Shown here piece by piece: positions 4,704 through 43,711 of a stretch of 44,099 bases of DNA. The stretch lies in NCBI GenBank assembly GCA_021786375.1, contig JAJYNL010000064.1:1-44099 (forward strand), in the 5' to 3' direction. The translations under genes were made by a program, and so were the position numbers. The notes beneath the pieces were generated by a model, which saw only the letters and a program-made list of their open reading frames with translations, did not search any database and was not told the origin of the DNA. Position 1 is the stretch's first letter; each line of letters starts with the position of its first letter. Origin of the DNA: Actinomycetes bacterium (GTDB lineage: Bacteria > Actinomycetota > Acidimicrobiia > Acidimicrobiales > Acidimicrobiaceae).

Positions 4704-5333
4704 ATGGACGAAGTGGTTCCCCAAAATGCCGTCGTAGTGCCACTGACGTTTCCAGCGGTCGAGGAGCTTGCCGCGAACGGCGGCCCGGCCGCCCTGCGCA
4801 AGCCCGTTGACACGTTGGTCGACGAGGCCTTCGCCGCCGGCCTGGAGCAGGGCCGCCACGAAGGCGCCGCGGATGCCCAGGAGTCGCTCAGGCAGGCGCT
4901 CGCCGAGACGGAGCCTCGCCAGGAGCTCTTGGCCTCCCTCATCCAGGCCTTCGGAGCCCAGACCTCCCAGTCGCTCGCGCTGCGAGCCCAGGATGTGCTG
5001 GAACTGGCACTCGAGCTCACGGAAGCGCTCCTGGGATCACGCCCAGACCAGGGGATCGAACGCATGGCCGCCGAGCTCCCGAAGGTATTGGCACAGCTGG
5101 ACGTCACAACGGAAGTCGAGATAAGGATCCATCCCCGCTCAAGGGGGCACCTTTCCGAACTCCTCGAGTCCTTGCCGGTGGCGTTTCCGGCCCAGCTGAA
5201 AATCGTCGAGGACGAGCGCCTGGCTCTCGCCCAGGCCGTGGTCAGGTTCGGAGCCACCCGGGTCGACCTTGGCCCGGAAGCAGCTCTGCGCAGGCTGCGA
5301 GAGACCTTCGAGCAGTTGGTGCATACCAAGTGA
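4704..5333 (+). CDS. fliH: Flagellar assembly protein FliH
   Basis: A 209-residue protein. The N-terminal third is helical and includes A-G-L-E-Q-G-R-H-E-G, a short form of the glycine-repeat helix typical of FliH. The rest matches the C-terminal FliH / V-ATPase E-subunit domain. FliH forms a dimer that restrains and positions the FliI ATPase at the export gate. The start is the ATG at 4704, preceded by GAGGAAGGA and lying seven bases after the fliG stop. An in-frame start inside fliG exists but has no homology support. The last bases overlap the fliI GTG by four (GTGA), consistent with co-translation of the two partners. Confidence 0.88.
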   Translation: MDEVVPQNAVVVPLTFPAVEELAANGGPAALRKPVDTLVDEAFAAGLEQGRHEGAADAQESLRQALAETEPRQELLASLIQAFGAQTSQSLALRAQDVLELALELTEALLGSRPDQGIERMAAELPKVLAQLDVTTEVEIRIHPRSRGHLSELLESLPVAFPAQLKIVEDERLALAQAVVRFGATRVDLGPEAALRRLRETFEQLVHTK

Positions 5334-6640
5334 TCCCCGCTTCCTGGAAGGACGAGCTCAAACGATCGCTTCGCCCCGTGCCCGAGGGAAGGGTGTGCCG
5401 CATGGTTGGCCTGCACCTGGAAGTCGAGGGTGTAGACGCGGCCGTTGGCGAGGCGATCCGAGTGGAGATCGACGGCTCGGAAAAGATCCTGGCCGAGGTC
5501 GTCGCGATCAGCGACGGAAGGCTGGTCTGCATGCCATTCGGAGAGATGGCGGGGGTGCGCTTCGGCGCCACCGCCGTGCCTCTCAACCGGGCCCCGGCCG
5601 TGGCGGTTGGACGGTCGATACTCGGACGGATAGTCGACGCCAACGGCTCCCCCATCGACGGGCAAGGTCCGATCGAGGCCGAGGACATGGTCGGGGTGCT
5701 CAACGCCGCTCCGGCCCCCCTGGTCCGTCCCATCATCACCGAGCAGATGCCTCTGGGGGTTCGCGTCGTCGACACCATGGTGCCATGCGGCAAGGGGCAG
5801 CGGCTGGGCATATTCGCGGGTGCCGGAGTCGGCAAGTCCTCGTTGGTCTCGATGGCGATACGCGGGACCAAGGCGCCGGTAAAAGTGCTGGCCCTAATCG
5901 GCGAACGCGGCCGTGAAGTAAGGGAGTTCATCGAGCGCGACCTGGGCGAGGAGGGACTGTCCAGCGCCGCGGTGGTCGTCGCCACATCCGACCAGCCCCC
6001 CCTGATGCGAATTCGCGCCGCCCTAACCGCCACCCGGATCGCGGAGTGGTTCCGCGATCAGGGCGAGGACGTACTGCTAATCATGGATTCCCTCACCCGC
6101 CTGGCGATGGCCCAGCGCGAGGTGGGCATCTCCACAGGCGAGCCACCGACCATGCGCGGGTATCCACCGTCGGTCGGATCACTCATGGCGAGGCTCCTGG
6201 AAAGGGCGGGAAGCTCCGATCAGGGCTCGATCACAGCCCTCTACACCGTCCTGGTGGACGGGGACGACATGCTCGATCCCGTCGCCGACGCAGCCCGTTC
6301 CATCCTGGATGGGCACATCACGCTTTCGCGAGCCCGGGCGCAGATGTCCCGCTATCCCGCAGTTGACGTTCTTGACTCCGTATCGCGCCTCGAATCGTCA
6401 ATCCTGACCGATGACCAGCGCCTCCTGGTCCAGGCCGCACGAAGGATGTTGGCGGTCTACCAGTCCTCCGTCGACCTGATCGAGGTGGGGGCATACCGTG
6501 CCGGCGTCAATCCACAGCTGGATCTGGCCATAGCGCTTCGAGAACGCCTCGAAGAGGTCTTCTGCCAGGACGTGCACGAGCTCAGCCCACTGGAGACCTC
6601 CTGGTCGCGGCTGGCAGAGGCCATGGGGGGTGCGGGGTGA
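5330..6640 (+). CDS. fliI: Flagellum-specific export ATPase FliI
   Basis: A 436-residue F1-beta-like ATPase. The Walker A motif is G164-A-G-V-G-K-S-S171, Walker B is D247-V-L-L-I-M-D253, and the conserved G-E-R-G-R-E-V-R-E-F block is present, as are the T-x-x-E-P-P-x-x-R-G-Y-P-P-S and Y-x-V-L-V-(D/E)-G-D-D segments typical of FliI. The enzyme hydrolyses ATP to help feed substrates into the flagellar export channel. The start is GTG overlapping the fliH stop by four bases. The stop in turn overlaps the fliJ GTG by four, so fliH, fliI and fliJ form a coupled export module. Confidence 0.97.
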   Translation: MIPASWKDELKRSLRPVPEGRVCRMVGLHLEVEGVDAAVGEAIRVEIDGSEKILAEVVAISDGRLVCMPFGEMAGVRFGATAVPLNRAPAVAVGRSILGRIVDANGSPIDGQGPIEAEDMVGVLNAAPAPLVRPIITEQMPLGVRVVDTMVPCGKGQRLGIFAGAGVGKSSLVSMAIRGTKAPVKVLALIGERGREVREFIERDLGEEGLSSAAVVVATSDQPPLMRIRAALTATRIAEWFRDQGEDVLLIMDSLTRLAMAQREVGISTGEPPTMRGYPPSVGSLMARLLERAGSSDQGSITALYTVLVDGDDMLDPVADAARSILDGHITLSRARAQMSRYPAVDVLDSVSRLESSILTDDQRLLVQAARRMLAVYQSSVDLIEVGAYRAGVNPQLDLAIALRERLEEVFCQDVHELSPLETSWSRLAEAMGGAG

Positions 6641-7071
6641 GCGCCAAGAAGGGAAAGCTGGCCGTGGCCCTCCGGCTGGCCGAGGCCGAAAAGCGCCTTG
6701 CTCAGCTCGCCGTCGCCGAGGCAGCTAGGCGGCTTCAAGCGGCCCAAGAGGCCGAGGGGCTGGCTGTGGCCAGCACCTACTCACTCAGCCAAAACCTCCT
6801 GGTCCAGCCGGGAAGATCCGACCTGGCCCGGGCGGCACAGCTTTCGCAGTCCGCCGCACACCAGGAAGGACGGCGCACCGAGCTCCGCACGGCGGAGCTG
6901 TCGGCCTCGCTCATGGCTCTCCAAGATCGGCAGGCCTGGACCAATGCCGTAAGCAAGCTGATGGAAAAGCGCCGCCGGGAGGAGCTTTACCTGGAGGGAC
7001 GCCGCGCGACAGCCGAACTGGTCGAAGGGGCGGTGCGGCGCATGGGAGGCTACGATGACCTTCGTTCCTGA
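6637..7071 (+). CDS. fliJ: FliJ-like flagellar export chaperone
   Basis: A 144-residue, almost entirely alpha-helical coiled-coil protein rich in Ala, Glu, Arg and Gln, with repeats of the type R-L-A-E-A-E-K-R-L-A-Q-L. Length, fold and place directly after fliI fit FliJ, the stalk subunit inserted into the FliI hexamer that also escorts unused export chaperones. Sequence conservation in this family is low, so context carries much of the call. It starts at a GTG overlapping fliI by four bases, and its end overlaps the next gene by 17 bases. Confidence 0.75.
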   Translation: MSAKKGKLAVALRLAEAEKRLAQLAVAEAARRLQAAQEAEGLAVASTYSLSQNLLVQPGRSDLARAAQLSQSAAHQEGRRTELRTAELSASLMALQDRQAWTNAVSKLMEKRRREELYLEGRRATAELVEGAVRRMGGYDDLRS

Positions 7072-8098
7072 TGCCGTCACCCGCCTCCAGGACCTCGGAG
7101 CAACCTTCCAGCAGCTGGCGGGCCTCTCGTCCCCCGGGCAGATGCCCGCTCCAGGGCAGGCGACGACCCTCGGCTCGTTTACGGACTTCGCCTCGCTGCT
7201 CGGACAGATAGAGCGCCAACTGGCACCGGCCCAGGCAAGCCCGGCGTCCACCTCTGCGGCTCCCCCGCCAACGCCGGTACTCGCGATGGACGCCTCGACA
7301 GCCACAAGCGCCATGTTGGCGCCCACTTCCAACGCACCCGGCCCGGGATCCTTCGGCTCCCAGGTTGTCTCTGACGCCGGACGCTACCTTGGCGTGCCCT
7401 ACGCGTGGGGTGGCACATCGCCCAGCACGGGATTCGATTGCTCCGGCCTGGTACAGCATGTCTTTGCCGATCTAGGAGTCTCATTGCCCCGCACGGCGGC
7501 TGAGCAGTCCCAGGTCGGTGTCGCCGTCTCCGGGTTGCGCCAAGCACAGCCCGGAGACCTGATTTTCTACGGGTCGCCGGCGGAGCATGTGGGCATATAC
7601 GTTGGCAACGGCCTCATGATCAACGCGCCCGAGACGGGACAGGATGTCTCAGTCGCCCAGGTAGGGAATCCCACCTCCATTCGCCGGGTCTCGCCCGGCG
7701 CGGAGACGAGCACATCGATACCCGCCTGGATGGCCAGCGCCTTTTCCTCGGCAACCCAGGCTTACGGACTCCCCTCCGGCCTCCTGCAGGCCGTCGCCCG
7801 GACCGAGAGCGGCTTCAACCCCGGCGCCACCTCGCCCGCCGGAGCCCAGGGCCTGATGCAGATAATGCCTTCCACGGCAGCCGGTCTCGGAATCAACCCG
7901 CTCGATCCGATCCAATCCATCTATGGAGCCGCCGATCTCCTGGCACAAAAGATCAAGGCCTTCGGTTCAGTCCCCTTGGCGGTGGCGGCCTACAACGCCG
8001 GCGATCAGGCGGTGCGCCGCTATGGCGGAATCCCCCCGTATCCGGAGACCGTCAACTATGTGAACACCGTGATGAGCGGCATGGAGGTGAGCGGGTAA
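7055..8098 (+). CDS. Flagellar-operon NlpC/P60 + lytic transglycosylase fusion protein
   Basis: A 347-residue bifunctional peptidoglycan hydrolase. Residues 1-95 are Ala/Pro/Ser-rich with no Sec signal or membrane helix. Residues about 98-215 are an NlpC/P60 cysteine peptidase: F-D-C129-S-G-L, H178 in E-H-V-G-I-Y, and a polar third residue near N-A-P-E-T-G. Residues about 222-345 are a family-1 SLT domain with catalytic E251 in R-T-E-S-G-F-N-P, then G-A-Q-G-L-M-Q-I-M-P and A-Y-N-A-G. One domain would cut stem peptides, the other glycan strands. It lies between fliJ and fliK, overlapping both, where a FlgJ-type wall-penetrating enzyme is needed. Lack of a signal peptide suggests export by the flagellar apparatus; that is inference. 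The SLT-after-NlpC order is unusual. Confidence 0.88.
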   Translation: MTFVPDAVTRLQDLGATFQQLAGLSSPGQMPAPGQATTLGSFTDFASLLGQIERQLAPAQASPASTSAAPPPTPVLAMDASTATSAMLAPTSNAPGPGSFGSQVVSDAGRYLGVPYAWGGTSPSTGFDCSGLVQHVFADLGVSLPRTAAEQSQVGVAVSGLRQAQPGDLIFYGSPAEHVGIYVGNGLMINAPETGQDVSVAQVGNPTSIRRVSPGAETSTSIPAWMASAFSSATQAYGLPSGLLQAVARTESGFNPGATSPAGAQGLMQIMPSTAAGLGINPLDPIQSIYGAADLLAQKIKAFGSVPLAVAAYNAGDQAVRRYGGIPPYPETVNYVNTVMSGMEVSG

Positions 8099-9339
8099 TG
8101 CCGATTCCCCAAGCAACGGCGGGTTCGGCGACGCAGGAGATCGCCGGCAAGGCAAGGAGGAAGGCGGGCACGGGTTCCGAGCACGACTCCTTCACCGGGC
8201 TGCTCGAGGCCCTGGCGGCAACTTCGGTAGGCCAGGGCCCGTTAGCACCTCTTGGCAGACCGGCCGGCAATCGCAACATCCATGGCGCGCGAGCAGCGGA
8301 GGTGGAGACCGCGTCCCCGTCCCCCGGGGTAGCTCCGCCCAAAGCCCCCGACTCTCCGATAACCACGGTGCAGTCCGGACCGCGCACCGTCGAGGCCGGC
8401 CGGGCCGTCGCGGCCTCTGCCAAAAGCCCCTCCCTCGCGACCTCCCCCAAGACGGCGGCGCTGAAATCCTCGCTCACCGGCAACGCCACCCGCATGGAGG
8501 GGGTCACCTCCGCCGAGCCCAAGGTCGTCACGGATCAGCCCCAGCCAAGCGCTCCGCCCGCAAGCCCCGCCAAGCCGGCACCGGGCGAAGCCGGACCGGC
8601 AGCCCAAGCCCAGGCCACCAGCACCGCGATGCGGGTGGCGGTGACTGCCCCCGCCACCGGGCCCACTGTCCTCAAGCCCGCCAAGCCAGGTGTTGCGGCC
8701 GGCGGAGACGCCACCGTGGGGCACGGCGCCCATGGGCCATGGGGGACGGGCCAGCCGCCCGGCATCGCTGCGGCGACATCTGTGCCGACCCAGCATCCCG
8801 GCCTGCCCCAAGCTGCTCCCGGGCCTGCGTCGATCGCCATCCCGCCGTCGGCCCTCCAGGCTATGGCAGCACACGCTCCTCCTCCCGAGATCCCCTCTAC
8901 GCTGCCCGCCCAGGCCCGGGCCGCTATCGGCAATCAGGTGGCATCTGCGGTCAGCGGGCAGATCCGCACCGAAGCCGCCGGTGCCAGGACGACCCTTCAG
9001 CTTCGCGTCTTCCCGGAGAGCCTGGGCGAAGTGGTGGTGCGCCTGACCACTTCGGGAGGCTCACTCACAGTCCACCTCTCGGGAAGTTCCGCAGCGCTCG
9101 GTCAGATGCTTCATGCATCACGAAGCGAGATCGCCGCCTCCCTCCAGTCCGCAGGAGCCGCCAACGTCTCGATCGAGTTCGGCCTCTTCGGCGGAGGCGC
9201 CCGGCATCATGGCGGGCACCCCCAGCCCGAAGCACCTAATCCCATCTTCGTCAACCCCGGGTGGCAGGCATCCTCCGTCCACCCTGAACAGGCATCCGAA
9301 AGCCGGGGCGGGAGGCACCGCCTCGACCTGCTGGCATGA
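8098..9339 (+). CDS. fliK: Flagellar hook-length control protein FliK
   Basis: A 413-residue protein. The first 290 or so residues are low-complexity, rich in Pro, Ala, Gly and Thr, as expected for the flexible ruler part. The C-terminal domain (about 295-375) has the hook-length pattern: L-Q-L-R-V-F-P-E-S-L-G-E-V-V-V-R-L, then V-H-L-S-G, then a helix with L-x-x-A-G-A-A-N-V-S-I. That domain touches the export gate FlhB to switch substrate from hook to filament. It starts one base inside the preceding stop (TAATG). The following flgD and flgE genes encode the hook cap and hook that it measures. Confidence 0.87.
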   Translation: MPIPQATAGSATQEIAGKARRKAGTGSEHDSFTGLLEALAATSVGQGPLAPLGRPAGNRNIHGARAAEVETASPSPGVAPPKAPDSPITTVQSGPRTVEAGRAVAASAKSPSLATSPKTAALKSSLTGNATRMEGVTSAEPKVVTDQPQPSAPPASPAKPAPGEAGPAAQAQATSTAMRVAVTAPATGPTVLKPAKPGVAAGGDATVGHGAHGPWGTGQPPGIAAATSVPTQHPGLPQAAPGPASIAIPPSALQAMAAHAPPPEIPSTLPAQARAAIGNQVASAVSGQIRTEAAGARTTLQLRVFPESLGEVVVRLTTSGGSLTVHLSGSSAALGQMLHASRSEIAASLQSAGAANVSIEFGLFGGGARHHGGHPQPEAPNPIFVNPGWQASSVHPEQASESRGGRHRLDLLA

Positions 9340-9364
9340 GACCTAAAGAGAAAGGTACCCACAG

Positions 9365-9778
9365 ATGACCATGGTCAACCCGGTTTCCAGTGGCGCCGCG
9401 GCCCAGGCGCAAAACTCCAGCGCCGGCAGCGGCCTCACTTCGCTCAGCGCTGGCGACTTCCTGAAGCTGCTCGTAACCCAGCTGACCAATCAGGATCCGA
9501 CCAACCCGCTCGATCCCACCCAGATGATCTCCCAAACCTCGACTCTGACAATGGTCGAGGACATAACCCAGATGAATCAGGCCCTTTCCGCCATGGAGAG
9601 TGGCCAGCAGCTTTCACAGGCGGTCTCGATGCTCTCCAAGCAGGTCTCGTACCAGCTGCCCGGCACATCGGCCACCCAGTCCGGAACGGTGTCGTCCGTC
9701 CAGATGGTTTCCGGGACTCCGACGCTCATGGTCAACGGAAGCCAAGTGCCCCTCAGCGCCATCACCTCCGTCAGCTAG
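9365..9778 (+). CDS. flgD: Flagellar hook-capping protein FlgD (short form)
   Basis: A 137-residue protein. The N-terminal FlgD core is unmistakable: D-F-L-K-L-L-V-T-Q-L-T-N-Q-D-P-T-N-P-L-D followed by M-I-S-Q-T-S-T-L-T-M-V-E. After residue 95 only one small beta segment remains, so the Ig-like and full Tudor domains of the 220-residue proteobacterial form are absent, as in several Gram-positive FlgDs. The protein sits at the tip of the growing hook and guides FlgE assembly. AAAGG precedes the ATG at 9365; the ATG two codons later is an alternative. Confidence 0.92.
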   Translation: MTMVNPVSSGAAAQAQNSSAGSGLTSLSAGDFLKLLVTQLTNQDPTNPLDPTQMISQTSTLTMVEDITQMNQALSAMESGQQLSQAVSMLSKQVSYQLPGTSATQSGTVSSVQMVSGTPTLMVNGSQVPLSAITSVS

Positions 9779-9845
9779 TCACGGATTGGCCGGCTGATCC
9801 GGCCCCTGAACGCTCCATCAAACAGCCCAACGAAAGGAACCCAAC

Positions 9846-11114
9846 TTGACCCGCTCTCTCTCCGCCGCCATCTCAGGGATCGACGCAAATCAGTCGATGC
9901 TGGACACGATCGGCAACAACATCGCCAACGTCAACACGGTCGGCTACCAGTCCTCCGACGTCCAATTCGCCGACCTGCTCTATCAGCAGGCGGGAGGGGC
10001 CGGCTCACCGGTACCGGGTGTAACCGGCGGCACGAATCCAATCGAAATCGGCTCGGGCGTGCGAGTGGCTTCCACTCTCACCAACTTCGCCCAAGGGACC
10101 ATACAGCAGACCGGGGTGCAGACCGACCTGGCCATCCAGGGGCAGGGCTTCCTGGTGACCAGCCAGGGCGGCAGCACCTACTACACCCGGGCGGGAAACC
10201 TGCAGCTCGACGCACTCGGCGAGCTGGTCACACCCGAGGGCCAGGTCGTGCAGGGCTGGGTCCCCGGCGCCAACGGCCAGATCAACACCTCCGGCCCCCT
10301 CTCCAACCTGGTAATTCCACAGGGCCAGGCGGCGAACCCCCAGGTCACCAAGAACATCACCTTGGGAGGCAACCTGCCGACCTGGAGCGGCACCGGGACT
10401 CCGCCTTCCTACACCGCAACCGTGACCGCGTACGACTCCCTCGGCGGCCAAATCCCCATCACCATCACCTTCGCCGCCACCACCACTCCGGACACCTGGA
10501 GCGTCGTGGCCACCGCGCCAAACCCTGGAGGCGGGACCGATACCCTCACGCCCACCGGCACCACCATCAGCTTCGATCCCACTTCCGGGCAGCTGACCTC
10601 GTCAGCGCCGATCACCCTTTCGGGCTTCACCGGATACCCCGACCTGCCGGCCGGGTACTCCATGAACCTCGACTTCCCCGCCCCCGGCACGCCCCAAGCG
10701 GTAACCCAGTTCGCCGGGACATCGTCGATCCAAGTGACCAGCCAGGATGGCTTCCCCTCGGGCTCGCTGAACGGCTTCACCATCGGATCCGACGGCACTA
10801 TCACCGGGAACTACTCCAATGGGCGATCCCAGGCCCTTGGCCAGGTGGCTATCGCCACCTTCGCCAATAATGAAGGGCTGGCCAAGGTCGGCGGGCTGAG
10901 TTACCAGGCCACGGTCAACTCCGGTGCCGCCCAGCTCGGAACCGCGGGCGCCGGCGGACGTGGAACGTTGGTCGGCGGTGCGGTGGAAGGCTCGAATGTG
11001 GACCTTGGCACCCAGCTCACCGACCTGATCGTCGCCCAGACGGCCTACCAGGCGAACACCAAAGTCGTCTCCACCACCGCGACCGTGTTGCAAAACCTGG
11101 TACAGACGGCGTAA
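9846..11114 (+). CDS. flgE: Flagellar hook protein FlgE
   Basis: A 422-residue protein of standard FlgE length. The N-terminus has the rod/hook signature G-I-D-A-N-Q-S-M-L-D-T-I-G-N-N-I-A-N-V-N-T-V-G-Y (split here across the TTG-proximal helix), then A-I-Q-G-Q-G-F and Y-T-R-A-G-N-L-Q-L-D. The middle (about 170-310) is a Thr/Pro/Gly-rich surface domain. The C-terminus has G-A-V-E-G-S-N-V-D-L and the closing helix with Q-T-A-Y-Q-A-N-T-K. It polymerises into the hook, the universal joint. The start is TTG at 9846 with AAAGGA upstream; no ATG fits the homology. Confidence 0.95.
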   Translation: MTRSLSAAISGIDANQSMLDTIGNNIANVNTVGYQSSDVQFADLLYQQAGGAGSPVPGVTGGTNPIEIGSGVRVASTLTNFAQGTIQQTGVQTDLAIQGQGFLVTSQGGSTYYTRAGNLQLDALGELVTPEGQVVQGWVPGANGQINTSGPLSNLVIPQGQAANPQVTKNITLGGNLPTWSGTGTPPSYTATVTAYDSLGGQIPITITFAATTTPDTWSVVATAPNPGGGTDTLTPTGTTISFDPTSGQLTSSAPITLSGFTGYPDLPAGYSMNLDFPAPGTPQAVTQFAGTSSIQVTSQDGFPSGSLNGFTIGSDGTITGNYSNGRSQALGQVAIATFANNEGLAKVGGLSYQATVNSGAAQLGTAGAGGRGTLVGGAVEGSNVDLGTQLTDLIVAQTAYQANTKVVSTTATVLQNLVQTA

Positions 11115-11134
11115 GCAACGCAAGAAGCATGGCC

Positions 11135-11161
11135 TAAGGGCAGGCTGATTCCTGCCGATAT
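11135..11161 (+). promoter_or_regulatory. Sigma-28 (FliA/SigD-type) promoter for flbD-motA-motB-fliL
   Basis: TAAG (11135-11138), exactly 15 bases, then GCCGATAT (11154-11161). The motility sigma factor consensus of the SigD type is TAAA-N15-GCCGATAT, so only one base differs. Transcription would start about 7 bases on, leaving a short leader before flbD at 11190. It predicts that stator genes are made late, with the filament genes. The spacer also contains a small GGCAGG/CCTGCC inverted repeat (11139-11156). Confidence 0.72.
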
Positions 11162-11189
11162 ATAGGGCGTTCATCGGAGCAGGAGACCC

Positions 11190-11441
11190 ATGATCAGGGT
11201 TACGCGCCTTCAGGGCGCCACCATGGCCATAAACGCGGAGCTGATCGAGAGGATCGAGTCCACCCCGGACACGGTCATAACTCTCGTCGGAGGCGCGCAC
11301 TACGTAGTCGCCGAGCCAGTCGAGGAGCTGCTCGAGCGGATCGTCGAGTATCGCGCCTCCATAATCCGCCGGGCCAACCGGCCCGCGGACGAACCCAACT
11401 CGAGCAAGCTGCACCTGATGGATGACGACGGCGGCGGCTGA
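11190..11441 (+). CDS. flbD: FlbD family flagellar protein
   Basis: An 83-residue protein. The N-terminal 60 residues match the FlbD family: M-I-x-V-T-R-L at the start, N-A-E-L-I-E-R-I-E-S-T-P-D-T-V-I-T-L and a final helix with E-L-L-E-R-I. The tail of about 20 residues is Asp/Gly-rich and variable. This small Gram-positive family lies between flgE and motA in many genomes (swrD in Bacillus, where it raises motor torque). The same order here supports the call. It is not the Caulobacter NtrC-like FlbD. GGAG precedes the ATG by about six bases. Confidence 0.88.
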   Translation: MIRVTRLQGATMAINAELIERIESTPDTVITLVGGAHYVVAEPVEELLERIVEYRASIIRRANRPADEPNSSKLHLMDDDGGG

Positions 11442-35698: not shown

Positions 35699-35855
35699 CG
35701 GGGACCTAGCTGCGTAGGCGGTTTCACCGAGGCCTCGAGTCCATGCCAAGATAGCATTTGACCGTTAAGCGATTTTCGCGTCCAGCTCCGATTCACCCGT
35801 TGGGGGGATCAGGCCGCCCCGGGGGCGGGCGGTGCCGGCGCTTGTCAGGGGAAAA

Positions 35856-37154
35856 ATGCTTCAGACCTGTGACGTACTCATTGTCGGCGCGGGGCCGGGG
35901 GGCGCATCGTGCGCGTTCTGGCTCGCCAAGCTGGGGATCTCCTCGGTGGTGGTGGAGAAGAAGGTGTTCCCGCGAGAAAAGACCTGCGGAGACGGCCTCA
36001 CCCCCAGAAGTGTCCACCAGCTTGAGCAGATGGGGATGTCGGGCTTTCTGCAGTCCAAGCACCGCTATCACGGCCTCCGCACCGTCGCCCTGGGACGTGA
36101 GATGGAGCTCAAGTGGCCGCAGCATCCCGAACTCCCCGACTACGGGTTCGTCGTAAGCCGCTACGACCTGGATGGCGCGGTGGCCGCCAACGCGGCTGAA
36201 GCCGGAGCCACCATCCTTCACGGAGCCGAAGCGGTGGGGGTCGAGCGCGGGCCCGCAGGCGAGGCGGTGATGGTTGCGGTCAGGAGCAAGGACGGCACCA
36301 CGACCGAGTATGCCCCCAGGTACCTGGTGGTCGCTGACGGCGCCAACTCGCGCATCGGAAGGCAGCTGGGCGCGGTCCGAGACCGCTCGCTACCCATGGG
36401 CCTTGCACTGCGCGGCTACTTCAACTCGCCGCTGGGGGACGACGACTTCATCGAATCCCACCTGGACATTCGCACCGTCGATGGTGAGGTCATGCCCGGT
36501 TACGGCTGGATCTTCCCAATGGGCGACGGAAGGGTGAATGTCGGCGTGGGCATTCTCTCGACCCTGGGTCGCTGGAAGGAGGTCAACACCACCAAGGTGA
36601 TGGAGGCCTTCGTCGCGTCGGCTCCCGCCAGGTGGAAGCTCGACCCGGCGGACCCGCTATACGTGGGCACCGGTGGAAAGCTTCCGATGGGCTTTGCCGT
36701 CGGGCCTCGGGTCGGACCCAATTTTCTCATGGTTGGTGACGCCGCCGGAGCAATCAATCCATTCAATGGCGAAGGCATCGCCTACGGTTACGAGACGGGC
36801 CGCCTGGCCGCCGAAGTGATCGCCGATGCTCTAGCCCTCGACGATCCCGGGGTGCTTCGTCGTTACGAGCGGGACCTCGAGGAACGCTATGGAACCTACT
36901 ACCGCGCCGCGCGCGCATTCGTCGGACTGATAGGGCATCCCACCATAATGCGAGCGGCTGTCGGGGCCGGCATCCGTTCGAAGCTGATCATGGATCCGGT
37001 CATGCGCGTCATGGCCAACCTGATGCAGGATGGCCACAACGGCCCGGCGGAGCTCCTTTATCGCGCCGGACTTGCCGCCATTGGCGCAAAGGATAGGCTC
37101 GATCCCCTGGTGAAAGCCAGCCGCGACGTCATCGGAGCGCGTCTGAGCCGGTGA
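35856..37154 (+). CDS. Geranylgeranyl reductase family FAD protein (menaquinone reductase-like, MenJ)
   Basis: A 432-residue flavoprotein. The FAD-binding start is V-L-I-V-G-A-G-P-G-G-A-S, followed by K-T-C-G-D-G-L-T-P-R, the mid-domain V-V-A-D-G-A-N-S and the second FAD motif G-D-A-A-G-A-I-N-P-F-N-G-E-G-I. These mark the geranylgeranyl reductase family. In actinobacteria a member (MenJ) saturates one isoprene unit of the menaquinone tail. Being divergent from nuoA, whose complex reduces that quinone, it fits this role; archaeal-type lipid or chlorophyll-type reductases are the alternatives. The ATG at 35856 has AGGGGA just upstream; a GTG eight codons earlier is also open. Confidence 0.82.
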   Translation: MLQTCDVLIVGAGPGGASCAFWLAKLGISSVVVEKKVFPREKTCGDGLTPRSVHQLEQMGMSGFLQSKHRYHGLRTVALGREMELKWPQHPELPDYGFVVSRYDLDGAVAANAAEAGATILHGAEAVGVERGPAGEAVMVAVRSKDGTTTEYAPRYLVVADGANSRIGRQLGAVRDRSLPMGLALRGYFNSPLGDDDFIESHLDIRTVDGEVMPGYGWIFPMGDGRVNVGVGILSTLGRWKEVNTTKVMEAFVASAPARWKLDPADPLYVGTGGKLPMGFAVGPRVGPNFLMVGDAAGAINPFNGEGIAYGYETGRLAAEVIADALALDDPGVLRRYERDLEERYGTYYRAARAFVGLIGHPTIMRAAVGAGIRSKLIMDPVMRVMANLMQDGHNGPAELLYRAGLAAIGAKDRLDPLVKASRDVIGARLSR

Positions 37155-37358: not shown

Positions 37359-38219
37359 ATGCGTACCCCTGGCTGGAGATTGATTCGCGTGGTCTCGGCG
37401 GTTTCCATAACCGGGCTTGCCGCAGCTTCATGCGGATCAGGGTCTCCGGGCCCCTCCAGCAACGCCATCGCCCGAACCACTACTGCTCACTCGGCACAAG
37501 TGCGCTGGATGATTGCATCGGGAGCGCTACGCCTTCTTTCGGCGTCCGCTCGCCAGGTGATCGAGAGCAACGCCCAAAACCTCGTCATCTACCAGCCGAC
37601 ACAGACGCCGGCAGCAATGGCCGCCATCCCGGTGGCAACCTTCCGCAGTTTTGCCGCGCTTTCGAGTGCACTTGCGGCCGGCACCCTCTCGCCCCGCTTC
37701 AAATATGTCCTACTGGACCTCGAAGCGTGGCGGTTCACCCCCCAAAACGAACAAGCGGACCCGGCTCACTACTATGTGGAGGCAGCCCGGCTCCTGCGCC
37801 AGCACGGGTTGAAACTGATAGCCGCTCCAGGAACCAACGTCTACTCCCACTCCAGCACTTTGCGGGGGCGCAACTACCAGCGTATGCTCGCATCCGGAAT
37901 ATTCGATGTGGTAGCCCCCCACGCAGCCATATTTTCAATTCAGTCCCAAAGCCTCGAATTCGAGCCTTCGGTGTTCGCGTCCTACGTATCGCAGGCCGCC
38001 TCGGCTCTTAGGAGCGCCAACCCCGCCATCGCCGTCTTCGCCGGGATCAGCACCAATCCCCCAGCGGGCACGGCGACAACGAGCCAGCTTGCCGACGTGA
38101 TGAAGTCCGTCTCTTCAGTGGTAAAGGGGTTCTGGCTGAACGTGCCACAGCCCGGCCCGTCCTGTCCCAACTGCAAGGAGCTCAACGTGGCGGCGGCGAA
38201 CGGGTTGCTGGAAAGGTGA
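37359..38219 (+). CDS. Exported putative lipoprotein of an unrecognised family (paralog 1)
   Basis: A 286-residue protein of a family I do not recognise. The N-terminus (1-25) is a signal peptide with a weak lipobox, A-A-S-C25, so it may be lipid-anchored. From about 45 it looks like an alternating alpha/beta domain: beta strand then D120-L-E122-A-W124-R-F-T-P128, E131-Q-A-D-P135, L-I-A-A-P at 153-157, I-Q-S-Q-S-L-E (194-200), G-I-S-T-N-P (229-234), G-F-W-L-N-V-P (257-263) and C269-P-N-C272. Acidic residues at strand ends hint at a TIM-barrel glycosidase-like fold; that is inference. The same motifs recur with near-identical spacing in the protein at 42575-43711. GGAAGG precedes the ATG. It is convergent with the glycosyltransferase gene. 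Confidence 0.75.
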   Translation: MRTPGWRLIRVVSAVSITGLAAASCGSGSPGPSSNAIARTTTAHSAQVRWMIASGALRLLSASARQVIESNAQNLVIYQPTQTPAAMAAIPVATFRSFAALSSALAAGTLSPRFKYVLLDLEAWRFTPQNEQADPAHYYVEAARLLRQHGLKLIAAPGTNVYSHSSTLRGRNYQRMLASGIFDVVAPHAAIFSIQSQSLEFEPSVFASYVSQAASALRSANPAIAVFAGISTNPPAGTATTSQLADVMKSVSSVVKGFWLNVPQPGPSCPNCKELNVAAANGLLER

Positions 38220-38334
38220 CCGCGAAAAGCACCGCCTAACCCGCAGCGCACGCATGGTCCAAGATCGCGCCCTCGCCAAGGACACGGGAGCAGGGGGCGG
38301 ACTCGGGTCCCGCACCGCTTGCCCACGGAGACCC

Positions 38335-40290
38335 CTAACGCAACCGGGGAACCTCGAGACAGATGATTTCGACGCGCCCGCCATCCTGGGCCCCTGACTG
38401 CTCCGGGACCCATCCGACCGCGTCCTCGATCGCCGGGATCGACATCACGCTCTCGATGGCGGCGAAACGCTTCGCGACCCCGAATGGGATGAGAATCGGT
38501 AGCCATAGCAGCTGCGATCGATAGCCATGTCGGATCGCCAATGCCGCGACCACCAGCAGCGAGGGAACGTTCGCCAGTATCAGCAAGAAGGCAAGCTTAG
38601 CCATCAGGGTTGCCCCGCCAGGGAAAAGCGCCAATACCCCTCCAATGCCGACGAACATGACCGGATGCACCACGGCCCGAAAACGGGAGATCGAGAATTC
38701 GGCGGCCATTGCCGATGTGGTCGATACATTGTTGCCTTGCAAGGTGCAGTTCCGCGCAACGACCTGGGCTCCGCCTCTGAACCAACGGACGCGCTGCTTG
38801 CGAAACTCCTGCCAAGACTGGGGGACGTCCTCATAGATCCTGATATCGGTGTCGATGGTCACGCGATATCCCGTGCGTTCGAACTGAATGGTGAGGTCCG
38901 CGTCCTCACCATTCATACCCTCGACGAATCCCCCGTTGGCGCGCGCCACTGAGGCGCGGAAGGCGGTAAACGTTCCGGGTACGCAGGAGATTGCGTTGAT
39001 CCGCGAGATGGCAATGCGGCCAAAGGCAAAGGCGCGCAGACACTCGAAGAGGCGGCCGTAACTGTACCACGCGGTCAAGCCGGGGTGCGGAAGGTCGAGC
39101 GCGCCAACCATGCCTACCTCGGGGTTGGCAAACCACTCCGGAAGCGGCAGGAACACCCCGGAGTCGACGATTGTATCCGCGTCGATCCGGATCACTATCT
39201 CGGTTTCCGCCACGTCCAGCGCGGAGTTGAGGGCAGGGGCTTTGCCGCGATGGGGGCATCTGACGATCGTGCCTCTCGCATGCCGGTAACCCATGAATGT
39301 TCTTGTAATGATATCCACCGTCGAATCGGAAGAGCCATCGTCGGCGACCACCACGTTCACGATCCCGGTATAGCGCCCGGCCGCCTGGTCAATGGCGTCG
39401 AGCGAGGCGTTGATGATCAGCTCCTCGTTGTAGGCGGGCATGATCACGGTAATTGATGGCATGCGCGCAGGCTTCGGCCCTTTGACCGTCCTTTCGCCAA
39501 TTGTCAGCAGGACCAGGTAGGCGATAACCGGGATGGTGGGAAGCGCGAAAAGAATGCCCACGCCGGCGGTAACGCCTCCAGTGAGAATGCGGGCGCTGAT
39601 CCAGATGAAGGCCGTCACCGATACCACGGTGGCGACAAGGCCCGCGAAGGCGAGACGCAAGATGTCGAGCCAGCGAGTTCTCCCCCGGAAAGACGACGCA
39701 ACGGCGCGGGGCAGCGCGAGGGAACCTTGAACCATGGCCATGAAAGCCAAGAAGCCAAGTAGCAGTGCTGTCAGGGCATCTGCCCACCTGAAGAAACCCA
39801 CGGTTACTGAGAAGCGAAACGCGACGACGGCCAGAAACGAGTTGGCAACCACCAGCGAGGCGAGAAAACCTGCCGCATAAGACAATGCGCCAATCCGTCG
39901 CATCAGCGGCGCTCGCAGAAACAGCCCCATCGCAATCAGGCCAATGGCGATAAGGAGTGAATAGGCCATGTAAACCCCACCGAAGAAAGGTGGCAGAGTT
40001 CCCAGACCCGGAATAGCCAGCCTTGCCAGAAGCGTCTCGCCCCTTTGAAGTAATGCCATCAACCAGTGACCGCCCACGAAGAGGCCCGCTGTCATCAGGG
40101 CACCACTACTCACGAAGCCGGCAACCCTGAGGCCCGAAACCGGACTGGGAGTCGGAAGCACCACATTGCGCTTGCCATCACCCCTGTCACCCGAGGCCGA
40201 CTTGGTAAGGGGAAGCACGAGCACGGACAGGACGGAGCCCAGGAGCAGGACGAGTTCCGCAACTCCGACAAGCGAGAACTCAGGCTTCAT
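38335..40290 (-). CDS. Membrane processive family-2 glycosyltransferase with extra TM domain
   Basis: A 651-residue polytopic protein. Residues 1-265 contain about seven hydrophobic helices, an addition not found in standard IcaA/PgaC or HasA enzymes. The GT2 catalytic domain (about 278-505) has I-T-V-I-M-P-A-Y-N-E-E, A-D-D-G-S-S-D (D317/D318), R-I-D370-A-D372, G-E462-D463-A-D and Q499-R-V-R-W503, the D, DxD, ED, QxxRW set of processive polysaccharide synthases. Three helices follow (540-605). It probably polymerises a sugar nucleotide on the inner face and extrudes the chain. Product unknown; beta-1,4- or 1,6-glycans are typical. It is 39 bases after the HlyD-like gene, so the two form an operon. 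No PilZ domain is attached. Confidence 0.88.
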   Translation of the reverse strand: MKPEFSLVGVAELVLLLGSVLSVLVLPLTKSASGDRGDGKRNVVLPTPSPVSGLRVAGFVSSGALMTAGLFVGGHWLMALLQRGETLLARLAIPGLGTLPPFFGGVYMAYSLLIAIGLIAMGLFLRAPLMRRIGALSYAAGFLASLVVANSFLAVVAFRFSVTVGFFRWADALTALLLGFLAFMAMVQGSLALPRAVASSFRGRTRWLDILRLAFAGLVATVVSVTAFIWISARILTGGVTAGVGILFALPTIPVIAYLVLLTIGERTVKGPKPARMPSITVIMPAYNEELIINASLDAIDQAAGRYTGIVNVVVADDGSSDSTVDIITRTFMGYRHARGTIVRCPHRGKAPALNSALDVAETEIVIRIDADTIVDSGVFLPLPEWFANPEVGMVGALDLPHPGLTAWYSYGRLFECLRAFAFGRIAISRINAISCVPGTFTAFRASVARANGGFVEGMNGEDADLTIQFERTGYRVTIDTDIRIYEDVPQSWQEFRKQRVRWFRGGAQVVARNCTLQGNNVSTTSAMAAEFSISRFRAVVHPVMFVGIGGVLALFPGGATLMAKLAFLLILANVPSLLVVAALAIRHGYRSQLLWLPILIPFGVAKRFAAIESVMSIPAIEDAVGWVPEQSGAQDGGRVEIICLEVPRLR

Positions 40291-40329
40291 TGTCCTCGGT
40301 TTCCTTGGCGCGCAAGGGAGTGGGACTGC

Positions 40330-41724
40330 TCACGAAAGCCTCAATGTCCCGACCATTCCCTGCATATAGCCACGGGCGGATTGGCCGTTGGCCTCAAAGA
40401 TCACCGCGTATTCGGCCGTGCCGTTGGCAATCTCGGGGAATGCGCCGATCTGCAGCACTGTGGATCGCAGCGGTGCAAGTCCGTGCACTTCGGGGATGAA
40501 TTCGGCGCGGGCTCCCAGGTGCACCCTTCCTATGGCGCTCTGTGGAACCAGCGCCGTGATCCTCAGCGGCGATGATGTCCGAAGAACGATAACGGGAGCA
40601 AACGCCGACACCGCGGCCTGCGAGATGGCCTGGGTGGGAAGGAAACTGTTGCCCGCCTGAGCCTGAGACAGCCCTCCCTGTGGGGCCACCGATCCAACCC
40701 CATTCGCGGAGACCTGCTCTCCGACGCCACCGGCTACCTCGGCAACCACCCCGGCATTGGGCGCTATGAGCACACCGGCCGCTGCGATCTGCAAGTCGCT
40801 GTTCAGCTGCGCCTGGTCTTTGGCAAGCTGGCTCTGCGCAGCAGAAAGGTCGACGGCATAGGAGTAGGCGACCGAGGGGTTCTGCGCGGCAATCGCGCCC
40901 GCATCCTGCGCGTCGGTCAGGGCCTTTGTTGCGCCCGCGACGGCGATGCTCTGCTGAGCTTGGATGGAGAGGACCAATTGGCGCGCATTGCTCAGGCTCT
41001 GCTCGGCCCCCTGCGCGGAATCGTACAGCTGGACGCACTGCTCCAAGGAGAAACTCGGCCCTGCAGCCGCCGGCCCGCCCGGGCACTGTTGCCTGAAGAT
41101 TCCTTCGACCGTGGAGTACTGAGATTGGAGACTGGCTACCTGTGCGTTTGCACTGGCAAGCTCGGCGGTAAAAGCACTTTCGGCTGTAGTCAGTGCAGCC
41201 TCCGCCGCGTTGATCTCGCCCTGGTAACTGGCGGCGACCGAAGCTGCCGATCCGGCTCCGGCGCCATTAGCCAGCGACTCAAGGACATGCAAGCGCTGCT
41301 CGTCCGCCGCCACTGCAGACCGGTCACGTGCGACCAGCGCGCTCGAGGTAACCGTAGATTCGGAGGCGAGTAGCTGGCCCGCTCGGACACGCTGGCCAAC
41401 CTTGACGTCGAGAGCTCCGAGGGTGCCGCTCTGCTGAAAATTGAGCGGAACCAGCCCGAACGAGGAGACCTGGGCGGGGTAGCTATTGGCGGAGGCGGCA
41501 TTTACAAGGTGCCACGCCTCGGGCGCAATGGCGGCGGCGGCAGCAGCCATCACCAGAGCTCCAGCCAAGTACCTCTTCCGCGGCCGAGCCAGAAGGGGAG
41601 CAGGCACTTCCGGAGCAGGCAGGGAAGGAACCTGGGACACCTCCGGTCTTGACGCAAGACCCCTATCCGGCAAGGCTCCTATGCTGGACACCTCTTCCCT
41701 TATGTCGATTTCGTTCGCATTCAA
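40330..41724 (-). CDS. HlyD-family membrane fusion (adaptor) protein
   Basis: A 464-residue protein. A cytoplasmic N-terminus is followed by one membrane helix (about 53-72). Then come a lipoyl half-motif (G-T-L-G-A-L-D-V-K-V-G-Q-R-V-R-A-G-Q-L-L-A), a long Ala/Gln/Ser-rich coiled-coil hairpin (about 125-320), the second lipoyl half (G-V-L-I-A-P-N-A-G-V-V) and a beta-barrel domain with S-P-L-R-I-T-A-L-V-P. Such adaptors couple a membrane pump or synthase to an envelope conduit. No ABC or RND partner lies here; the next gene is the glycosyltransferase, suggesting a role in polysaccharide export, as Alg44 does for alginate. The TTG at 41724 has AAAGGA seven bases before it; a GTG at 41772 would give 480 residues but a poor ribosome site. 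Confidence 0.82.
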   Translation of the reverse strand: MNANEIDIREEVSSIGALPDRGLASRPEVSQVPSLPAPEVPAPLLARPRKRYLAGALVMAAAAAAIAPEAWHLVNAASANSYPAQVSSFGLVPLNFQQSGTLGALDVKVGQRVRAGQLLASESTVTSSALVARDRSAVAADEQRLHVLESLANGAGAGSAASVAASYQGEINAAEAALTTAESAFTAELASANAQVASLQSQYSTVEGIFRQQCPGGPAAAGPSFSLEQCVQLYDSAQGAEQSLSNARQLVLSIQAQQSIAVAGATKALTDAQDAGAIAAQNPSVAYSYAVDLSAAQSQLAKDQAQLNSDLQIAAAGVLIAPNAGVVAEVAGGVGEQVSANGVGSVAPQGGLSQAQAGNSFLPTQAISQAAVSAFAPVIVLRTSSPLRITALVPQSAIGRVHLGARAEFIPEVHGLAPLRSTVLQIGAFPEIANGTAEYAVIFEANGQSARGYMQGMVGTLRLS

Positions 41725-41772
41725 TGGAGCTTCCTTTCGAGAGACCTCGGCGACGCTGGGATGATCAGTCAC

Positions 41773-42574
41773 CTTCCGCGTTGATCGGGGGCGTAGCCGG
41801 TATCCCGACTAGGGGTATGGGGTAGCTTCGGGAAATGGCAGGCGAAAGCGCCCGTCGCCTAGGCGGCCTGCTTCACCAGTGGTTCGGCATGCGTACACAC
41901 CCAAGCCGGCGAATACAGCACTCCCCGGCGGTTGGCAGTGGCCCCAGGTGCGGGCCGTGAGGTTACCAATGCAACGGCTCAAGGCCGCGACCCGGATGGA
42001 GCGGCCTTCGACATCAGCTGGTGGACAATCCTGCTCGCCGTCCCTGGGAGACGAGGAGATTAAGGGCGAAAATGCCCCAAAGGCGTCCCAATTCGGTACG
42101 CTCCGGAAAGTGGACATTGCGACCCCACTGACAGACGCTGTTCTTGATTCAGCTGCGACAAGCACAATGTACACTACGCAGAGTGGCATTGCTGTCGGAA
42201 GCTTCGCTTAATCTTCATGCCGATGAGCTTGGTCCTTCTTTTTCGTACCAGTGCCCCACCCACCCCGTCTTGCCACCGTCATCCCACCTCATAGGCACCT
42301 TTGTTCAAGGCCGGATACGAAACCAGCCGGCCTAAGCGAAATGCAAGGTCGTTGGCCTTACCCATGATGGCAGCGCGACCTCACTCCTTGCAGCCTTATG
42401 ACGACGGTCCAGCGCACTGCGTGAGCTAACTCGCGCACTGGCGTAATAGGTCATGCGGTTGCGCCGACAAGGGCCCCGGGCACGAGTGCGGGAGCACGCG
42501 CCCCACCGATCCCTAAAGCAAATCGGCCGATTTGTCGACGATGACTACGGAGCCGCCACGTTCCTGGAGGGAAG
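41773..42574. other. Gene-poor intergenic stretch with hairpins and repeats
   Basis: About 800 bases between the divergent HlyD-like gene and the second exported paralog. Small open frames on both strands lack ribosome sites and family features. Visible structure: an AGGCCGG/CCGGCCT hairpin (42308-42333, 12-base loop), two copies of GCGCACTG exactly 21 bases apart (42412 and 42433) around a TGCGTGAG/CTCGCGCA stem (42418-42437), a GTGC-GGGA-GCAC stem-loop (42486-42497) and a perfect palindrome at 42519-42534. It is less GC-rich in parts than the flanking genes. It should hold the promoters of both flanking genes, but I find no clear -35/-10 pair. Confidence 0.5.
42519..42534. promoter_or_regulatory. 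Perfect 16-bp palindrome before the second exported paralog
   Basis: CAAATCGGCCGATTTG is fully self-complementary and ends 40 bases before the ATG at 42575. The position suits an operator or a promoter-proximal site. It contains GCCGATTT, but the only TAAA upstream (42514-42517) is 8 bases away, so a sigma-28 promoter is not supported. Confidence 0.4.
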
Positions 42575-43711
42575 ATGACCTTCTTGAGAGGCCGTGCATG
42601 GTGGTCCGTTTTGGCACTTGGGGGTGCCTCGCTCTCCCTGGGCGTGCAGCCAGGCTCGCTTCGGCAACTGCACGCCGAGGTGTCGGCACGCACGGGACAC
42701 AGCTCCCCTGGAGCCACCAATGCTCGGAAGAGCGCGCACCGGCATTTGGCCCATCGTACGACTGAACGCCGGCCGAGTTCAGCGGCCCATCCAGGGGCTC
42801 CCCATCCGACAATTTCCCCATCGGCGCATGCGCGGACTTTGCATCATGCTCGCACCATGCCGTCGCCGGCAACGGGACCTTCAGGGGCTCAGGCTCCCTA
42901 CACCAACCCACCTATGGCCAGGGCAGCGACAACCCCCGAGCCCGTTGGGCCATCTGCGCCATCCGCCGAGGTCGGGCCCCTTTCCACCCACTGGATCATT
43001 GCCGCGTCGGCCCTTCAGGATCTGATCAGCGCAGGAGGCGGGGTGATTGCCAGGTCGACCTTCGACAACCCGACGACGGTCATTCTTGGGACCTCACCCG
43101 CCATAGACACATGGAACTTCAACCGTGGCGCTTCCGTGAAGAGCCTGCCGCAGATGGAGGCAGCCACAACAGCAACACCGCGAGCGGAGACGGTCCTCTA
43201 TGACCCGGAGGCCTGGCCGTTCACCCCGACATCCGAACAGCTCGACCCGGTTGGGGCCTCTCGAACCGCCCAGGAGATTGCCACGAGCGCACACACGTCC
43301 TTGATCGCCGCACCGGCGCTCGACCTGATGAAGGTGCTCTATCCCGGGATGGCGGCCACGACCGCCTACATCTCCAAGGACATGCCCGGCCAGCTCGCCC
43401 GGTACTTATCCGCCCTCGATATTCAGGCCCAATCCCTGGAAGCAAGCCCCGCCAGCTACGCCCGCTTCGTGCGAGCCGCCGTAGCTGAAGCACGCGCGAT
43501 CAATCCCAGCGTGCGCATATACGCCGGCCTCTCGACCAACCCTGACGGGAAGACAGTCACCTCCCAAGAGCTCTACCAGGACATCCAGGCAACATCAGCG
43601 GACGTTTATGGTTACTGGCTAAACGTGCCATCAGGGGGCACGTACTGCCCCTCGTGCGGAACTCCCAAGCCGGAGATAGCCATCGATCTCCTCAGCGAGC
43701 TACGCAACTGA
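42575..43711 (+). CDS. Exported protein of the same unrecognised family (paralog 2)
   Basis: A 378-residue protein. Residues 1-36 look like a signal peptide or anchor (R-x-R then W-W-S-V-L-A-L-G-G-A-S-L-S-L). Residues about 37-130 are a low-complexity Pro/Ala/His/Ser/Thr linker, as used to cross a cell wall. The folded part carries D210-P-E212-A-W214-P-F-T-P218, E221-Q-L-D-P225, L-I-A-A-P (243-247), I-Q-A-Q-S-L-E (283-289), G-L-S-T-N-P (318-323), G-Y-W-L-N-V-P (346-352) and C358-P-S-C361. First motif to the C-P-x-C pair spans 148 residues here and 149 in the paralog at 37359-38219. A hydrolase or binding protein for the polysaccharide made by the genes between them is a fair guess, not shown. 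GGAGGGAAG precedes the ATG. Confidence 0.75.
   Translation: MTFLRGRAWWSVLALGGASLSLGVQPGSLRQLHAEVSARTGHSSPGATNARKSAHRHLAHRTTERRPSSAAHPGAPHPTISPSAHARTLHHARTMPSPATGPSGAQAPYTNPPMARAATTPEPVGPSAPSAEVGPLSTHWIIAASALQDLISAGGGVIARSTFDNPTTVILGTSPAIDTWNFNRGASVKSLPQMEAATTATPRAETVLYDPEAWPFTPTSEQLDPVGASRTAQEIATSAHTSLIAAPALDLMKVLYPGMAATTAYISKDMPGQLARYLSALDIQAQSLEASPASYARFVRAAVAEARAINPSVRIYAGLSTNPDGKTVTSQELYQDIQATSADVYGYWLNVPSGGTYCPSCGTPKPEIAIDLLSELRN

Follow-up and report, generated by a model that had tools for sequence, protein, structure and literature searches.

Two paralogous predicted TIM-barrel proteins beside a GT2 glycosyltransferase and HlyD-type adaptor in Acidimicrobiaceae: a candidate secreted-polysaccharide locus

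We analyzed a 44,099-nucleotide stretch of DNA (the window; contig JAJYNL010000064.1 of assembly GCA_021786375.1, positions 1 to 44,099) from an actinobacterium of the family Acidimicrobiaceae, whose draft genome (G000) comprises 2.83 Mb in 119 contigs. In this window, two genes encoding predicted TIM-barrel proteins flank the genes of a family 2 glycosyltransferase (GT2) and a HlyD/MacA-type adaptor. The first barrel protein (P0001, 286 aa) is encoded on the plus strand at 37359..38219, with its barrel at residues ~46-286 and a conserved D120-x-E122 motif whose codons lie at 37716-37724. The GT2 (P0003, 651 aa; 38335..40290) and the adaptor (P0004, 480 aa, GTG start; 40330..41772) are both encoded on the minus strand, the adaptor gene lying directly upstream of the GT2 gene, in the same direction and 39 bases apart. 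A divergent intergenic region of 802 bases (41773..42574), probably a control region, separates the adaptor gene from the gene of the second barrel protein (P0002, 378 aa; 42575..43711, plus strand). P0002 contains an N-terminal signal or anchor, an Ala/Pro/Ser/His-rich linker (~28-135) and a barrel (~130-378) with D210-x-E212, encoded at 43202-43210. Because the flanking barrel genes, one convergent and the other divergent, lie on the strand opposite to the GT2 and adaptor genes, a single operon of the four genes was rejected.

The two barrel proteins are true paralogues. The initial annotation of this DNA, made from the sequence by a model, had described seven motifs shared in the same order with first-to-last spans of 149 residues in P0001 and 148 in P0002, and these were exactly reproduced: each motif occurs once per protein in identical order, starting at residues 120, 131, 153, 194, 229, 257 and 269 of P0001 and 210, 221, 243, 283, 318, 346 and 358 of P0002. 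The paralogy proposed there was likewise confirmed, with a within-genome match of 232 residues at 33% identity (E 4e-28) and a local alignment score of 285, compared with a mean of 37 (sd 6, max 57) for shuffled sequences. The same within-genome search detected no third barrel copy in G000. A CPxC motif, nearly invariant at the C-terminus of the barrel family (residues 269-272 of P0001), may form a disulfide or metal site in exported proteins.

Both proteins carry sequence features that suggest export and different modes of anchoring. P0001 has a lipobox-like AASC at residues 22-25; a lipobox is present in 15 of 30 barrel-family members, some of which have better examples than AASC (e.g., LAGC and LSAC). 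P0002 begins with a hydrophobic stretch of moderate mean hydropathy (1.39), followed by its Ala/Pro/Ser-rich linker with 10 His residues, and the P0002 group in the genus likewise combines a moderately hydrophobic N-terminus with an Ala/Pro/Ser/His linker. The earlier view of one lipoprotein and one long-linker protein is in line with these features, from which the anchor types would follow. The action on the polymer at two depths of the envelope, also suggested there, is a conjecture that goes beyond these anchor types.

Sequence databases offered no family for these proteins. A Pfam scan of P0001, P0002 and 30 family members returned nothing above chance, no NCBIfam model matched P0001 or P0002, comparison of the family profile with PDB sequences gave only noise, a search of plasmids found no relative, and a BFVD search yielded general barrel matches only. 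AlphaFold2 with family alignments predicted, with high confidence, a TIM barrel for P0001 (pLDDT 88.3, pTM 0.81) and for the P0002 barrel alone (pLDDT 94.6, pTM 0.91). The eight strands occur in the predicted order, and structure comparison, with 185-217 residues aligned in the top matches, places both models among TIM barrels, as the initial annotation had anticipated. The best match of the P0001 model was BT_0435 (VIA Z 13.7, 202 residues, 3.2 A), and that of P0002 was a tie of homocitrate synthase and SleL (VIA Z 13.2). Glycosidases among the fold neighbors include BT_0435, SleL, chitinases, GH128 and Cwp19. The predicted models thus support a TIM-barrel fold for both proteins, a fold that does not by itself give the function.

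Active sites of TIM barrels sit at the C-terminal ends of the strands. In the barrel family, 10 of the 20 most conserved sites fall at such ends, compared with 5.3 expected (p 0.017). D120, E122, P128, Q197, G257 and W259 are invariant in 30 sequences, and the strongest sites on the P0001 model are D120/E122/W124 after strand 4 (116-119), P157 after strand 5, Q195/Q197/E200 after strand 6, T232 after strand 7 and W259/N261/P263 after strand 8. Distant relatives outside this family, elsewhere among the actinobacteria, also keep the D-x-E, E-Q and Q-x-Q motifs. The outcome that the initial annotation had named as a refutation, an unrelated fold with no pocket at the D-x-E/I-Q-x-Q-S-L-E residues, was not seen in the predicted structures.

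With respect to known glycosidases, the family weakly resembles GH18 enzymes of the SleL, Cwp19 and chitinase type, which are recurrent fold neighbors; its predicted barrel recalls theirs in having D-x-E just past strand 4 and a Gln at strand 6. However, the D-x-x-D-x-D-x-E signature of GH18 is reduced here to D-x-E, and sequence membership is lacking, as none of the 30 barrel members matched Pfam PF00704. No GH18 gene was found in 42 Acidimicrobiaceae genomes. A search of the phylum for GH128 gave no match and was uninformative, as no control matched either. The description "GH18-like" serves here as a lead only.

The GT2 contains all motifs of a processive synthase (DDGS at 317, DAD at 370, GEDAD at 461 and QRVRW at 499), with membrane segments on both the N- and C-terminal sides of the catalytic domain. 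QxxRW is a mark of processive GT2s, and the key motif residues are invariant in 14 homologues (Q499, R502 and W503 in all 14/14), which points to a processive enzyme. The GT2 family profile matches 6yv7 and cellulose synthases. Scores against curated models were far lower than required, i.e., 95.5 bits versus a cut-off of 422 for the poly-N-acetylglucosamine (PNAG) synthase PgaC/IcaA (TIGR03937) and 29.1 versus 699 for cellulose synthase (TIGR03030), and the GT2 is also far below the curated NodC cut-off; these scores therefore assign no product to it. The adaptor as a single sequence falls below Pfam cut-offs (Biotin_lipoyl_2, 21.4 versus 29.8), whereas a profile built from its family finds MacA (3fpp, E 7e-11). 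The placement of a HlyD-like adaptor and a processive-type GT2 between the barrel genes, as first annotated, thus stands, with both genes on the minus strand and the GT2 motifs complete. C230 and C246 are invariant in the adaptor family, a possible disulfide or metal site in exported proteins.

Further examination of the 42 Acidimicrobiaceae genomes revealed the barrel protein in 20, the GT2 in 15 and the adaptor in 15. The barrel protein occurs in 15/15 genomes with the GT2 and in 5/27 without it (Fisher 1.6e-7, a value inflated by shared ancestry because the genomes are not independent). The GT2/HlyD pair and a barrel gene share one contig in 11 genomes (G000, G001, G002, G004, G013, G022, G024, G025, G030, G031 and G032), and the GT2 and adaptor genes are adjacent at every locus where both are complete. 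The divergent order of barrel and HlyD genes seen in the window recurs in L027, L038, L040 and L045. A same-strand arrangement is found at locus L039 of G001, which we take to be the type strain of Acidimicrobium ferrooxidans (DSM 10331). Here, five genes run on the same strand, i.e., an SQD1-like gene (5017-6270), HlyD (6307-7821), GT2 (7818-9713) and two barrel genes (9697-10563 and 10596-11441), whose neighboring ends overlap or almost touch. A contiguous HlyD-GT2-barrel operon is present in L033, L039 and L051, and a GT2-barrel-barrel run in L036; in L033, L036 and L051, the order of L039 is kept as far as the contigs extend. Hence, in the neighborhood check named by the initial annotation, barrel homologues do lie repeatedly beside GT2/HlyD genes across genera, sometimes in one operon. 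In the barrel tree, P0002 groups with the operon-encoded barrels (support 94/98) and P0001 lies on another branch; therefore, P0002 is likely orthologous to the enzyme encoded in the operons, with P0001 likely being an older duplicate.

Other variants of the locus were also observed. One barrel copy in G004 (L040:6768-7508, minus strand) is a truncated ORF with a TGA within the homologous stretch, and may be a decaying or misassembled paralogue. In L047 (G011), L049 (G007) and L050 (G010), where the GT2/HlyD pair and the barrel gene are apart, the pair belongs to a conserved cluster that also encodes two glycosyltransferases of the GT4 type, acyl-CoA dehydrogenases, a PspA/IM30 protein, a methyltransferase-like protein and a member of the FtsW/RodA family.

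SQD1 and Agl3 synthesize UDP-sulfoquinovose (PMC4388408), and SQD1-like genes were found at several of these loci. In G001, G004 and G025, they directly neighbor the GT2/HlyD genes or the accompanying barrel genes (L039:5017-6270, plus; L040:13585-14757, plus; L038:8184-9464, minus), and in G269 one lies within a few genes of the GT2/HlyD pair. The first gene of the A. ferrooxidans operon matches Arabidopsis SQD1 (1qrr) along its length (E 9e-154, residues 2-385, 384 residues). The SQD1-like genes in L038, L040 and L091 scored 318-334 bits against an NCBIfam NF041015 cut-off of 575, and are thus relatives rather than certified members. In G000, the SQD1-like gene is absent from the window and located on another contig (G000:C33:13059-14216). 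As 34 of the 42 family genomes possess such genes, including many without the GT2 and often elsewhere in the genome, SQD1 was rejected as an obligatory component, and for the same reason a role in sulfolipid or glycoprotein synthesis is just as likely as one in a polymer. Unlike a synthase-dependent exopolysaccharide, sulfolipid and the archaeal S-layer N-glycan are the known destinations of SQD1/Agl3 products. That the barrels represent a new glycoside hydrolase family processing a sulfoquinovose-containing, synthase-dependent exopolysaccharide, exported via a HlyD-type adaptor in acidophilic actinobacteria that lack an outer membrane, is a speculative proposal that we regard as improbable.

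A related GT2/HlyD locus was also detected in G269, which belongs to another family of the order. There, the adaptor is a HlyD protein fused to an N-terminal sulfatase domain (L091:7411-10287, minus), divergent from the GT2 homologue (L091:12475-13983, plus); beyond the latter come a second sulfatase and, at a greater distance, the SQD1-like gene. No barrel hit was obtained at the locus; an upstream ORF (L091:5293-6387), accompanied by an RCC1-repeat protein, shows a weak GH26-like barrel (19.8 bits, cut-off 20.2). This gene content is what one would expect of a polysaccharide locus whose processing enzymes can replace one another. RCC1-repeat beta-propeller proteins occur near GT2/HlyD genes in both families (L039:11520-13271 and L091:2971-5289).

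The best reading of the locus plan is that it comes closest to the cyanobacterial XcsABC and rhizobial BgsBA systems. The XcsA-XcsB-XcsC cellulose system (PMC12430437) consists of a GT2, a HlyD-like adaptor and an exported glycosidase, whose genes are clustered in some species and scattered in others; here, the GT2, the adaptor and an exported predicted TIM barrel, a putative glycosidase, are found together. XcsA carries PilZ, whereas none was found in this GT2 in a Pfam scan up to E 1, and XcsC is an endoglucanase, whereas the barrel falls outside all Pfam families and its host is an actinobacterium. The BgsB-BgsA system for mixed-linkage beta-glucan in rhizobia (PMC9495663) similarly pairs a HlyD-like adaptor with a GT2 synthase in a two-gene operon, but the described operon is bicistronic with no exported barrel enzyme, and the C-terminus of BgsA mediates c-di-GMP regulation. 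In the PNAG system PgaABCD (PMC5933820, PMC9384988), as with AlgL, an exported enzyme cleaves or clears the polymer of the linked synthase, and the C-terminal domain of PgaB (4p7o) is among the Foldseek matches (E 1e-3). In contrast to PgaABCD, no deacetylase domain and no TPR/porin component were seen here, and the GT2 is far under the PgaC cut-off. The initial annotation thus went too far in calling the system undescribed, since a GT2, a HlyD adaptor and an exported glycosidase form a known plan. The differences from the known systems lie in the family of the barrels, in the host, an actinobacterium, and in the link to SQD1, and our literature search found no such locus described for this acidophile group.

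We favor, with modest confidence, a synthase-dependent secreted-polysaccharide system whose exported barrels bind the polymer and most likely cleave or trim it. The membrane GT2 would polymerize a sugar and pass the polymer across the membrane, and the MacA/HlyD-type adaptor would couple the synthase to the exterior and carry the polymer outward. One or two exported barrels, one held by a lipid anchor and the other by a long flexible linker, would then bind and most likely cleave, trim or clear the emerging chain, a role played by PgaB and AlgL in other synthase-dependent systems (PMC9384988; for AlgL, also PMC8829089). In such an enzyme, D-x-E after strand 4 would supply the catalytic acid and its helper, and the sugar site would be lined by Q-x-Q of strand 6 together with the Trp of strand 8, in a GH18-like arrangement. 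Several observations weigh against this proposal. The fold matches are not specific to glycosidases, as aldolases, homocitrate synthase, isocitrate lyases and triosephosphate isomerase score equally. A profile-profile comparison with GH18, set aside as a basis for identification, was not significant, with a probability of 36% for the in-register alignment and 46% for the best-scoring, out-of-register one. The GT2/HlyD and barrel genes are on separate contigs in G003, G007, G010 and G011, and the barrel occurs without a GT2 hit in G012, G017, G038 and G039, as well as in G008, whose contigs end at the locus. A single-sequence search of a sample of 296 genomes of the class found no barrel relative beyond Acidimicrobiaceae; a profile search of the phylum detected relatives in a few families, none of them adjoining this GT2/HlyD pair.

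Part of this evidence would suit barrels that act on another envelope target, such as peptidoglycan or a glycoprotein, with the GT2 linkage a loose co-location within one family. The five genomes with a barrel and no GT2, the unrelated gene neighborhoods of the distant relatives and the wall hydrolases SleL and Cwp19 among the fold neighbors are consistent with it, but the 15/15 co-occurrence, the overlapping-gene operons in several genera and the identity of the P0002 clade with the operon-linked clade make it unlikely. Also unlikely, though slightly less so, is the idea that the barrels are pseudo-glycosidases, i.e., non-catalytic binding or scaffold proteins by which the nascent polysaccharide is retained at the membrane and the wall. 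An anchored architecture (lipobox or long linker), two barrel copies per locus in several genomes and the presence of the oligosaccharide-binding GH128 subgroup VII protein 6ubc among the fold neighbors would fit such a role, and some members may indeed be inactive, as the A. ferrooxidans paralogue L039:10596-11441 is very divergent and without the first Gln of Q-x-Q. However, the Asp and Glu after strand 4, unchanged in 30/30 sequences and kept in the distant members shown, are conserved more strongly than binding alone usually demands. It is very unlikely that the GT2 adds a sugar, perhaps sulfoquinovose, to a lipid or glycoprotein and that the adaptor serves efflux. This would agree with the presence of an SQD1-like gene close to the GT2 at four loci, with the wide distribution of such genes, GT2-less genomes included, and with the failure of the GT2 and adaptor to pass any curated polymer-synthase or HlyD cut-off, but QxxRW in 14/14 GT2s, the C-terminal membrane helices and the adjacency of GT2 and adaptor genes wherever both are complete argue for a polymer synthase.

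Elsewhere in the window, an NADH dehydrogenase gene cluster, named from its sequence, occupies ~26-35.6 kb, and a gene for an FAD-dependent oxidoreductase of the geranylgeranyl-reductase type (35832-37154, plus) lies between this cluster and the GT2/barrel locus.

Taken as a synthase-dependent system, these genes provide a testable set for a surface polysaccharide of mineral-oxidizing acidophiles, including a complete five-gene operon in the presumed A. ferrooxidans DSM 10331. They also define a family of exported barrels, outside Pfam and NCBIfam models, whose acidic residues are invariant, and raise the question of how a synthase makes use of a HlyD-type adaptor in a bacterium with one membrane. 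Should the linkage to SQD1 reflect sulfoquinovose in the polymer, bacterial slime would join sulfolipids and the S-layer glycans of archaea as a place where this sugar occurs.

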